Part shown: one piece after another, positions 9,535 to 63,856 of the stretch
How the letters are laid out: every line of letters starts with the position of its first letter
Numbering within the stretch: position 1 is the first letter of the stretch
From: Sphingomonas sp.
GTDB taxonomy: Bacteria; Pseudomonadota; Alphaproteobacteria; Sphingomonadales; Sphingomonadaceae
DNA: 64,000 bases
Direction: 5' to 3'
NCBI RefSeq assembly: GCF_004799495.1
Contig: NZ_SSMY01000002.1
Span: 186,001 to 250,000, forward strand
Position numbers and translations under genes: made by a program
The notes under the pieces: generated by a model
What the model saw: the letters and a program-made list of their open reading frames with translations, nothing else
What the model was told of the DNA's origin: nothing
The model's database searches: none

Positions 9535-11292
9535 ATGACCGACACCGTCCTCAACATCACCCAATCGATCCTCGGCCAACCATGGCGCTGGCGCGCGCTT
9601 GCCGCCGATGCACGCGATCCGGGGTTCCGGCCCGACGATCTGGTCACGCAATTGCTCCTGTCGCGTGGCGTGGGGCGCGACGATCTCGACGCCAACCGTA
9701 GCCCCAGCATCCGCGGCTTCATGCCCGACCCATCGATCTTCAACGACATGGACAAGGCGGCGGCGCGGCTCGCCGACGCGGTGCGGGCGGGCGAGGCGGT
9801 CACCGTGTTCGGCGATTACGACGTCGATGGCGCGACCTCGGCCGCGCTGATGATCCGGCTGCTGCGCGGGCTCGGGCTCGACCCGCAGGCCTATATCCCC
9901 GACCGATTGATGGAGGGGTATGGCCCGTCGGGCGAGGCGCTGGTGCGAATCGCCGCGGGCGGCGCGAACCTGATCGTCACCGTCGATTGCGGCGCGCAGG
10001 CGTTCGAGGCACTCGACATGGCGCGCGAGACCGGGGTCGATGTGATCGTCGTCGACCACCACCAATGCGCGACCGCCCTGCCCCATGCGCTCGCGCTGGT
10101 GAATCCCAACCGACTCGACGAAACGGAGGGCAAGCGGCATGGTCACCTTGCCGCGGTCGGCGTCGCGTTCCTGCTTGGCGCGGCCTTGCTGCGGGAGTTG
10201 CGCCAGCGCGATTTCTTTGCCGGTCGCGACGAACCCAAATTGCTCGATCTGCTCGATCTCGTCGCGCTGGGAACGGTCGCCGATGTCGCGCAACTAAAGG
10301 GTCTCAACCGCGCGTTCGTCGCGCAGGGACTCAAGGTCATGGCGCAGCGCCGCAACGTCGGACTGGCCGCGCTCGCCGAAGCCGCGCGGCTGACGCGCGC
10401 GCCGACATGCAGCGATCTGGGCTTCGCGCTCGGGCCGCGGATCAATGCTGGCGGGCGCGTCGGTCGCGCCGATCTGGGCGTGCGACTGCTGACCACCGAC
10501 GACGCGCACGAGGCGCGGACCATCGCCGCCGAACTCGATCGGTTGAATGAGGAGCGCCGCGCGATCGAGGCGACAGTTCAACAGGAAGCCGAAAGCCAAC
10601 CCTGCGGCCAAGCCGTCGCGGTGGTGGCGGGCAAGGGCTGGCATCCCGGCGTGATCGGGATCGTCGCCGGACGGCTGAAGGAGCGGCTCGGCATCCCCGT
10701 GCTGGTCGTCGCGATCGACGAGCATGGTGTCGGCAAGGGATCGGGGCGCTCGATTGCCGGTGTCGATCTCGGGGCGGCGGTGCTCGCCGCGAAGGAAGCC
10801 GGGCTGCTCGTCGCGGGCGGCGGGCATGCGATGGCGGCGGGGCTGACCATCGCCGAGGACCAGCTGGCCGAGTTCGCAGCCTTCCTCGAAAAACGTTTGG
10901 CCGCCGCCGTTGCGCGGTCGACCGCCGATCGCGCGCTACTGGTCGACGCGCTGCTCGCGCCCGGCGGGGTAACGCCCGATCTGTGCGAGACGATCGACGG
11001 CGGCGGCCCCTATGGCATGGGCTGGCCGAGCCCACGCGTCGTCGCGGGGCCGTTCCGCCCGATCAAGGTCGACGTCGTCGGCAACGGCCATGTCCGCGCG
11101 ATCATGGCGGGCGACGATGGCTGCAGCCTGAAGGCGATGGCGTTCCGATCCGCCGACACCGCGCTCGGGCAGGCGCTCCTCCAGGCGCCGTCGCACCGCA
11201 AATTGTGGCTCGCCGGACGGCCCAAGGTCGACGATTGGGGCACGCGGCCGGGGGCCGAACTCCATTTGGACGACGCCGCCTGGGCGGACTAA
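9535..11292 (+). CDS. recJ: Single-stranded-DNA-specific exonuclease RecJ
   Basis: VFGDYDVDGATSAALM, VDHHQ, LGPRINAGGRVG, GHAMAAGLTI motifs. Confidence 0.95.
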   Translation: MTDTVLNITQSILGQPWRWRALAADARDPGFRPDDLVTQLLLSRGVGRDDLDANRSPSIRGFMPDPSIFNDMDKAAARLADAVRAGEAVTVFGDYDVDGATSAALMIRLLRGLGLDPQAYIPDRLMEGYGPSGEALVRIAAGGANLIVTVDCGAQAFEALDMARETGVDVIVVDHHQCATALPHALALVNPNRLDETEGKRHGHLAAVGVAFLLGAALLRELRQRDFFAGRDEPKLLDLLDLVALGTVADVAQLKGLNRAFVAQGLKVMAQRRNVGLAALAEAARLTRAPTCSDLGFALGPRINAGGRVGRADLGVRLLTTDDAHEARTIAAELDRLNEERRAIEATVQQEAESQPCGQAVAVVAGKGWHPGVIGIVAGRLKERLGIPVLVVAIDEHGVGKGSGRSIAGVDLGAAVLAAKEAGLLVAGGGHAMAAGLTIAEDQLAEFAAFLEKRLAAAVARSTADRALLVDALLAPGGVTPDLCETIDGGGPYGMGWPSPRVVAGPFRPIKVDVVGNGHVRAIMAGDDGCSLKAMAFRSADTALGQALLQAPSHRKLWLAGRPKVDDWGTRPGAELHLDDAAWAD

Positions 11293-11353: not shown

Positions 11354-11428
11354 GGCCCCTTCGTCTAGTGGTTAGGACGCGGCCCTTTCACGGCTGAAAC
11401 ACGGGTTCGAGCCCCGTAGGGGTCACCA
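11354..11428 (+). tRNA. tRNA-Glu (anticodon TTC), CCA encoded
   Basis: GGCCCCTTCGTCTAGTGGTTAGGACGCGGCCCTTTCACGGCTGAAACACGGGTTCGAGCCCCGTAGGGGTCACCA; cloverleaf folds by eye. Confidence 0.96.
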
Positions 11429-61259: not shown

Positions 61260-62773
61260 CGCGGCGCGACGCGCGCCCTGGACGCTTGCTCGTAGGCATA
61301 GCCCGCATTGAACAGCGCCTGCTCGCTATACGCCGGCCCGATGAACGAAATCCCGACCGGCAATCCGCGTACCAGTCCCATCGGCACGGTCAGATTGGGA
61401 TAGCCCGAAATCGCGGGCAATTCGGACGAGCTCGGGCCGGTATATTGATCGCCGTAGACCGGGTCGCTCAGCCACGCCGGGCCATAAGTCGGTTGGACCA
61501 GGATCGTCGCGCCGGCATCCGCCAGCATCTTGTCGATCGCGCCTTTGGCGGCGGCCAGCGACTTGTCGCGCTGCCCCTGGTAAGTCGGCTCGGCGATGCC
61601 CTGCGACTTCGCCGCCATGTCGAAGATTTCCTGCGCGAAATACGGCATTTCGGTTGCGGCGTTGGCGGTGTCGAACGCGACGACCTGATCGAGCGTGCGC
61701 GCCTTTACCGCTGGCGCGCTCGCCGCGAGATATTTGTCGAGGTCGCTCTTCAGCTCGAACTTGAGCACATCGAACTCGGCATCGCCCATGCCCTCGGTCT
61801 TGGGCCGGGTCACGTCGATCAGTATCGCGCCCTGCGCCTTGAGCACCGCGAGCGCCGCGTCGAACTTCACCGCCTCCAGCGCCGGCATATCGGGGCGATA
61901 GACCGCGATCCGCACGCCCTTCAGCCCGTTGGTGGAAAGTCCCGCCGCATAGTCCTTGCGGTATTGGTTGGCGTTCGCGGTCGCCGGGTCGGCGGGATCG
62001 CTGCCGACCATCGCCGAAAACAGGATCGCGGCGTCGCGCACGCTGCGCGCCATCGGCCCGGGCGTGTCCTGGCTATGGCTGATCGGCACGACATACGTCC
62101 GGCTGACCAGCCCGAGCGTCGGCTTGAGCCCGACCAGCCCGTTCATCGACGACGGACATACCACCGACCCGTCGGTCTCGGTCCCGAGCCCCGCCGCGGC
62201 GAAGCTCGCCGCGATCCCGGCGCCGGTGCCGCTCGACGACCCGCACGCGGTGCGGTCAAGCGCGTATGGGTTGCGCACCAGCCCGCCGACCGCGCTCCAC
62301 CCGCTCATCGCCTTGGTCGAGCGGATGTTGGCCCATTCGCTGAGGTTGGTCTTGCCCAAGATCACCGCGCCCTGCGCGCGGAGCAGTGCCACCACCGGCG
62401 CATCGCGTCCGGTCCGGTTGTCCTCGAGCGCGAGGCTCCCCGCCGTCGTCGCGACCGGATCCTTCGTCTCGATATTGTCCTTGATCAGGATCGGCACGCC
62501 GTCGAGCGGGCCAAGCAGCTTCTTCGCCTTGCGCCGCGCGTCGCTCGCCTGCGCCTCGGCGATCGCATCGGGATTGACCGCGATCACCGCGCGCAAGCTC
62601 GGGCCGGCACGATCCATCGCCGCGATCCGCGCGAGATAGGCTCGCGTGATCGCCTCGCTCGACGTGCCCGACGTCATGGCGGCGCGAAGTTGATCGATCG
62701 ATTGCTCTTCGACGGTTTGCGCGGTCGCCGGGAGCGGCGCGGCAAGCAACAACAAGGCAGCGAGACGGCGCAT
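61211..62773 (-). CDS. Amidase signature family protein, secreted
   Basis: GSLALEDNRTGRDAPVVALLRAQGAVILGKTNLSEWAN, CGSSSGTGAGIAASFAAAGLGTETDGSVVCPS. Confidence 0.92.
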   Translation of the reverse strand: MRRLAALLLLAAPLPATAQTVEEQSIDQLRAAMTSGTSSEAITRAYLARIAAMDRAGPSLRAVIAVNPDAIAEAQASDARRKAKKLLGPLDGVPILIKDNIETKDPVATTAGSLALEDNRTGRDAPVVALLRAQGAVILGKTNLSEWANIRSTKAMSGWSAVGGLVRNPYALDRTACGSSSGTGAGIAASFAAAGLGTETDGSVVCPSSMNGLVGLKPTLGLVSRTYVVPISHSQDTPGPMARSVRDAAILFSAMVGSDPADPATANANQYRKDYAAGLSTNGLKGVRIAVYRPDMPALEAVKFDAALAVLKAQGAILIDVTRPKTEGMGDAEFDVLKFELKSDLDKYLAASAPAVKARTLDQVVAFDTANAATEMPYFAQEIFDMAAKSQGIAEPTYQGQRDKSLAAAKGAIDKMLADAGATILVQPTYGPAWLSDPVYGDQYTGPSSSELPAISGYPNLTVPMGLVRGLPVGISFIGPAYSEQALFNAGYAYEQASRARVAPRYLPSVDAGLEVEAAK

Positions 62774-62828
62774 GGCGATTCCCCTTTCGCCGCACCATCA
62801 GCCAAGCGCCCCAAAATGAAAAGAGGCT

Positions 62829-62848
62829 GCCGGGGATCTCTCCCCGGC
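62829..62848 (-). terminator. Intrinsic terminator upstream of the amidase gene
   Basis: Minus strand GCCGGGGA-GAGA-TCCCCGGC followed by AGCCTCTTTTCATTTT. Confidence 0.85.
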
Positions 62849-62989
62849 AACCTCCTGACATGGTCAGCGGCCGGAAGCTCCAGCCCGGAGGACCATGCGG
62901 ACCGCTAGTGTTACGGCTGGCGGCGTTGATTGGGGGAGGATGCCCCCCGCACGCCCGACCGGTGGAGGTCTTCCACCGGCGCCGTCACA

Positions 62990-63046
62990 TCAGCGGCGCG
63001 TCCCCCGAACGAACTGAACCGACCCCCTTGCTGAACCATGAGACAT
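62990..63046 (-). CDS. Short ORF MSHGSARGSVQFVRGTRR behind an extended Shine-Dalgarno
   Basis: ATG at 63046; AGGAGG core 7 nt upstream; 15 nt GAAAGGAGGTGATCC (63062-63048) fully complementary to a typical alphaproteobacterial 16S 3' end. Confidence 0.55.
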   Translation of the reverse strand: MSHGSARGSVQFVRGTRR

Positions 63047-63197
63047 CGGATCACCTCCTTTCGCTTGTTGAAACGACGTGCCCAAAACTGGGCACGGATC
63101 GAATGTGAATCACGGGGATAAGTATTTCAAGTCTTGTAATGCGCGGAGGAATCGACGATTCTCTTTCGCCTTGGCCGCGTCGCTGCGGCACTTCTCC

Positions 63198-63706: not shown

Positions 63707-63856
63707 TCAATGATGCTTGAAATACTGCACCTCGCGCTCGTGTTTCTCGGCGCCCGCGCGCGTGTCGAACGTGCCGAGGTTGCGGCGCTTGTGCGTCTTG
63801 GGATCGACCTTGCGCGAATAGAGGCGATATTCGCCCGACTTGAGCTTGCGGATCAT
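63707..63856 (-). CDS. Small basic conserved-looking protein (49 aa)
   Basis: Not in ORF track; translation MIRKLKSGEYRLYSRKVDPKTHKRRNLGTFDTRAGAEKHEREVQYFKHH with upstream GAGGAGA RBS-like sequence. Confidence 0.7.
   Translation of the reverse strand: MIRKLKSGEYRLYSRKVDPKTHKRRNLGTFDTRAGAEKHEREVQYFKHH

Follow-up and report, generated by a model that had tools for sequence, protein, structure and literature searches.

Organization of the Locus

The window, i.e. the whole 64,000-nucleotide stretch of Sphingomonas sp. DNA that was analyzed, carries on its minus strand the sequence GAAAGGAGGTGATCC (63062-63048), an extended Shine-Dalgarno (SD) sequence of which all 15 nucleotides are complementary to the 3' tail of 16S rRNA. 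It is followed by one G and an ATG at 63046, which opens an ORF of 18 codons (62990-63046) that reads MSHGSARGSVQFVRGTRR and closes with a TGA at 62992-62990 within TGATGTGA. The 14-mer AAAGGAGGTGATCC was found as a single copy in the 3.03-Mb genome with one mismatch tolerated. The unit ends in an intrinsic terminator (62812-62856), composed of a 16-bp stem (62856-62821) and a U-rich tail, and is followed on the same strand by an amidase gene (PF01425, E=4e-86) with its ATG at 62773. An earlier note on this DNA had described the SD-like 15-mer, the 18-codon ORF, the hairpins, and the terminator on the minus strand, and all of them were found in place.

A putative sigma70-type promoter (63102-63131) includes the boxes CTTGAA (63131-63126) and CACATT (63107-63102) and would place the transcription start near 63095. 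By a home-made score, a CTTG box and a C-A-C/T-N-T-T box were present upstream of most relatives with equal spacing, while a stringent sigma-70 scan found no promoter. The RNA would begin with a putative 5' leader hairpin, GTGCCC-AGTTTT-GGGCAC (63078-63095), and small hairpins that look similar occupy the equivalent place in several relatives (L003, L004, L005, L008, L013, and L022). The RNA is about 280 nt long here, compared to 180-220 nt in most relatives.

Two other observations were made in the window. Upstream of the element, the minus strand encodes a basic protein of 49 aa (MIRKLKSGEYRLYSRK...; 63707-63856), for which Pfam gave no match. On the plus strand, ARAGORN predicted a tRNA-Met of 93 nt (11070-11162) near a good tRNA-Glu at 11354, and the Rfam tRNA model was silent on the former at its cutoff.

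Distribution and Relationship to the CC2171 Family

Matches to the element were found by blastn in 133 of the 151 genomes of the same family, and a covariance model added three more, for a total of about 136 among the 151 sampled. Of 67 genomes of the class, 33 carried the pattern AAAGGAGGTGATCCNRTGTC, each a single time, compared to none of the 182 genomes of other classes, and the reversed control gave no match; as this pattern itself demanded a start codon, unbiased evidence on the start codon comes from the BLAST and covariance-model matches. Among the class matches listed were representatives of the Rhodobacterales, Hyphomicrobiales, Sphingomonadales, Caulobacterales, and Rhodospirillales, as well as Azospirillum and the Acetobacteraceae. 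Covariance model R1, built from sphingomonads only, reached other families with E-values down to 1.8e-10, compared to 4e-4 for its best match outside the class, and it also recovered members of the CC2171 type.

The Rfam family RF01867 (CC2171) matched the window with 29.1 bits (E=1.8e-4) and six sphingomonad relatives with 40-51 bits (E down to 3e-8), and these matches were significant over the whole model (1-159). The window and these six relatives fall short of the gathering score of 75 bits, which some members in other families pass. Across 289 sampled alphaproteobacterial genomes, the CC2171 model was matched in 69 at E<=0.01, and the curated cutoff was passed in nine. Both RNAs share the 5' domain CAAC..CGAAAGGAGGUGAUCC.RUGUCUCAU, a terminator, and a long-range helix in equal register (UCAUUGUC/GACAAUGG in CC2171), which closes just ahead of the terminator in both. 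The element differs from CC2171 in the sequence of this helix (P1), in its 18-codon ORF, and in a rod that is specific to sphingomonads. The element shares homology with a named Rfam family yet scores below the curated cutoff. That the sphingomonad elements are one branch of a family spread across the Alphaproteobacteria, to which CC2171 also belongs, is well supported.

One genome of the same genus (G093) contains two elements, L046/L248 (G093:C1:805096-805264) and L004 (G093:C1:2921842-2922085), which represent two types, the MSHGS type and the CC2171 type (MSHCH...). The presence of both in one genome suggests two old subfamilies. Additionally, three IMG/VR contigs listed as viral (L237, L239, and L240) bear the element with ORFs of the Bradyrhizobium or CC2171 type, and these copies probably lie in the host flanks of proviruses.

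A Long-Range Rod Built from the ORF

A long rod with covarying pairs has the ORF as its 5' arm, and its 3' arm lies past the stop codon. In 44 sphingomonad sequences, a structure of 37 pairs was 95.1% paired, compared to 84.9% in shuffled and 31-52% in slid controls, and 20 of the 37 pairs had changes on both sides. Helix P2 joins GGTCGG inside the ORF (63019-63024) to CCGGCC (62869-62874), with 98.6% of cells paired. Helix P3 joins GTTCGGGGGAC of codons 13-16 (63000-63010) to GTCCTCCGGGC (62883-62893), where both-sided changes were observed in seven of eight aligned pairs. The terminator is itself the fourth covarying helix (both-sided changes in 13 of 14 pairs).

Helix P1 pairs codons 3-6, CATGGTTCAGC (63030-63040), with GCTGACCATG (62868-62859), the stretch directly 5' of the terminator. 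No variation of P1 was found within sphingomonads, so that its support comes entirely from comparisons across clades, between which the two strands co-evolve and are swapped as a complementary whole in the same register (Wilcoxon P=3e-5, 33 clade representatives). The pairing of the ORF with the sequence past the stop exceeded that of shuffles in each of five clades (31.8 vs. 12.7, 21.7 vs. 16.1, 21.3 vs. 11.4, 14.1 vs. 10.2, and 15.8 vs. 8.9).

The tip of the rod, directly after the stop codon, varies in length. The two hairpins of the window at about 62978-62959 and 62948-62932 form a lineage-specific insertion into this tip (62932-62978) in alignment A1, and hairpins akin to them were present in only a few relatives (L004, L126, and L137). 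The apical hairpins were thus dropped as core elements. The ATG-TGA start-stop overlap in TGATGTGA, which the earlier note had also pointed out, is likewise present in the window but not conserved across the family, and it was dropped as a functional part. A 3' hairpin, GGCCGG-CACTT-CCGGCC, was considered as a switched state; by eye it is lost in several relatives, and it is not claimed. The features kept across the family are the SD, the length of the ORF, the long-range helices, and the terminator. Conservation of the short ORF and the stems in relatives, on which the earlier note had let its proposal stand or fall, was found for both, and the rod architecture of the family is well supported.

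The Extended Shine-Dalgarno Sequence

The SD is the most conserved part of the RNA across the class and is invariant in the 44 sphingomonad sequences. Its complementarity covers 13-15 nt of the 16S tail, with a fixed spacing to the start codon. With the class tail TGGATCACCTCCTTTCT, which was taken from two relatives rather than from this genome, the predicted duplex has an energy of -30.1 kcal/mol, compared to -15.3 kcal/mol for an ordinary strong SD. A search for rRNA genes detected none in most of these assemblies. Natural variants of the SD mostly retain the pairing with 16S rRNA, for example through an A to G change that gives a G.U pair.

Internal anti-SD segments that pair with the SD were found in Rhodobacteraceae, Bradyrhizobium, Mesorhizobium, and part of the CC2171 type. 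Such pairing was not seen in sphingomonads (mean z of -0.26) and was consequently rejected as a universal feature of the family. Most of the Rhodobacteraceae-type elements L111-L114, L120, L125, and L132 carry an anti-SD mimic, CCACCUCC or CCGCCUCC, about 45-55 nt past the stop and ahead of the terminator, which could shut the RNA by pairing with its SD. The details of gating may therefore differ in these clades, and internal anti-SD pairing is also compatible with a competition between the ribosome and the self-fold.

The strength of this duplex, the precedence of the SD over all else in conservation, and the frequent retention of 16S pairing through G.U would all be expected of a ribosome decoy, where the RNA only binds and holds 30S subunits, or those with an exposed tail such as subunits lacking bS21, while the rod merely stabilizes it. 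Extended start-proximal pairing in S. aureus and a hindrance by bS21 reported in E. coli (PMC13009471) point the same way. A decoy, however, would need neither the fixed place of the stop codon, nor a fixed ORF length, nor covarying helices embedded in the ORF, and a single gene copy would titrate ribosomes only at very high transcription. A pure decoy accounts for the SD but not for the fixed ORF and the rod, and we consider it improbable, if still the strongest competitor. Ribosome titration, as raised in the earlier note, nevertheless overlaps with the explanation favored below.

The SD could instead serve as a sponge that pairs with the C-rich anti-SD seed loops of sRNAs. A precedent is CrfA of Caulobacter, a documented sponge for the anti-SD-type sibling sRNAs SisA-D (PMC12559287). 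The conservation of the SD nonetheless reaches past the GGAGG seed to GATCC and GAAA, as does the match to the 16S tail, and the start codon, the stop codon, and the ORF length are maintained. A search of this genome found no member of the ar15 sRNA family, and for ar14 only a weak, ambiguous sub-threshold match elsewhere in the genome (L269, G000:C11:193598-193703; 35.8 bits, E=6e-5). A role as a sponge appears quite unlikely.

Selection on Translation but Not on the Peptide

Depending on the clade, the ORF starts with ATG, GTG, or TTG. All but two of the 64 sphingomonad elements have an ORF of 18 codons, and the length is fixed within other clades as well, at 18 codons in Rhodobacteraceae, 23 in Mesorhizobium, and 14 in Bradyrhizobium. 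The position of the stop is constant while its codon turns over, with TAA/TGA/TAG counts of 34/26/2 (sphingomonads) and 4/7/11. The peptides, ranging from 14 to 36 aa, are wholly different from clade to clade.

Past codon 5, pN/pS was 1.35 in sphingomonads, and the values for the three clades covered were 1.35, 0.83, and 1.62, all being pairwise averages over related sequences that are uncorrected for RNA constraint on wobble positions, a constraint that the reading proposed here in fact includes. The three clades do not comprise Bradyrhizobium, where synonymous differences numbered zero, or the CC2171 type. Purifying selection on the peptide, as expected of a dual-function sRNA, was hence not detected in sphingomonads. 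Selection on the start, the stop, and the length but not on the peptide is well supported. That the ORF is kept translatable while its peptide is not suggests that the passage of the ribosome matters rather than the product. Counting against it, the authors of a Caulobacter RNA-seq study describe most ncRNAs as untranslated, and two earlier ncRNAs, left unnamed in their text, as translated (PMC4117421).

An mRNA for a functional microprotein of 18 aa would explain the ideal SD, the start, the stop, and the fixed length, and MSHGS is invariant among sphingomonads. Yet pN/pS values of 1.35 and 1.62, substitutions that follow base pairing in P3, and the total divergence of the peptide between clades all speak against it. 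The recurrent EQP and TWI motifs are conserved at the nucleotide level, with little synonymous change. A functional peptide is thus disfavored by both pN/pS and the nature of the motif conservation, and we regard it as very unlikely. From the suggestion in the earlier note of an independent dual-function sRNA and microprotein, an independent conserved RNA with selected translation is retained, whereas conservation of the peptide is not.

Genomic Context

A comparison of neighbors with relatives revealed that the amidase adjoins the element in this genome only. The downstream neighbors vary by clade and are often convergent on the opposite strand, and no codirectional downstream gene is conserved among relatives. 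A leader ORF, a terminator, and an amidase gene follow one another on one strand, and the earlier note had proposed, among other readings, that the unit attenuates transcription of the amidase gene through a leader peptide. Such an attenuator is scarcely credible and was rejected, as this adjacency is unique, unrelated or convergent genes follow elsewhere, and no antiterminator is conserved. With the putative CTTG-type promoter upstream in most relatives and with its own terminator, the element is a transcription unit that stands alone and measures about 280 nt.

A Candidate Ribosome-Gated sRNA

The reading that we favor, and would accept or doubt in about equal measure, is that of a stand-alone translated sRNA in which a rod is gated by the ribosome and the opened form acts in trans. 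Its 5' leader offers an SD that matches the entire 16S tail, while the ORF and the 3' arm past the stop form the rod, with P1 closing just ahead of the terminator. In standby binding, 30S subunits dock on an RNA and wait. As codons 3-6 are locked in P1, it would be reasonable for a maximal SD to let the 30S subunit dock in this manner despite the lock. Elongation would then unwind the ORF arm as far as the stop codon, which lies near the apex, and thereby free the 3' arm and dissolve P1, and the RNA would fold back after release of the ribosome.

We infer both this ribosome-driven opening and any output in trans. The RNA would sense ribosome or translation status and, once opened, would act by pairing its freed arm with other RNAs, by holding 30S subunits, or by both. 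The output is probably in trans since no downstream gene is conserved. In folding predictions with the ORF held open, the mean unpaired fraction of the 3' arm rose from 0.28 to 0.45, while the window sequence showed no gain (0.26 both ways). Given this modest mean and the lack of a gain in the window, exposure of the 3' arm is the weakest step of the model.

A more specific version, in which a class-wide riboregulator senses ribosomes directly, is put forward tentatively and is rather less probable. Free 30S subunits would load on the maximal SD, and translation of an ORF of irrelevant sequence would open the rod and activate a function in trans. The loading subunits would be those whose 16S tail is accessible and pairs in full, possibly those poor in bS21.

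If the favored reading is true, a large bacterial class has, usually once per genome, an RNA that is selected for the act of translation and not for its peptide, and this act is coupled to a ribosome-binding site of the greatest possible strength. Such an RNA would naturally sense whether ribosomes are available or what state they are in, and how cells sense translational capacity could then be tested in Caulobacter, Bradyrhizobium, Mesorhizobium, or Sphingomonas. A class-wide RNA that retains a translated frame without retaining the peptide would come as a surprise to specialists. Many seemingly unrelated, clade-specific short ORFs are joined here in one RNA family, which Rfam so far represents by a narrow model based on Caulobacter.

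Comparison with Known Systems

Sinorhizobium rnTrpL is a leader-peptide attenuator, where translation of a short ORF changes the RNA fold and a terminator follows. The element resembles such attenuators in its short ORF, in a fold that translation would alter, and in the terminator thereafter, but it has neither a conserved downstream operon nor a codon-specific control run.

CC2171 is a Caulobacter sRNA that is non-coding according to Rfam, the examined output of which includes no translated ORF or class-wide spread. The searchable text of the literature on RF01867/CC2171, to which the original description of 2008 does not belong, mentioned neither a function nor translation nor a distribution across the class. 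In Mesorhizobium, RNA-seq revealed a homologue with the annotation RF01867 as a separate transcript of 215 nt (PMC5596092).

The CrfA sponge and SisA-D of Caulobacter, of the same class, share with the element the logic of SD and anti-SD pairing between RNAs (PMC12559287). Selection on an ORF is not described there, and the likeness drawn here is one of logic. In the extended-SD initiation of S. aureus (PMC13009471), as in the element, the SD pairing is lengthened on the start-codon side of GGAGG. While this is a general feature of mRNAs in S. aureus, the element represents one RNA per genome.
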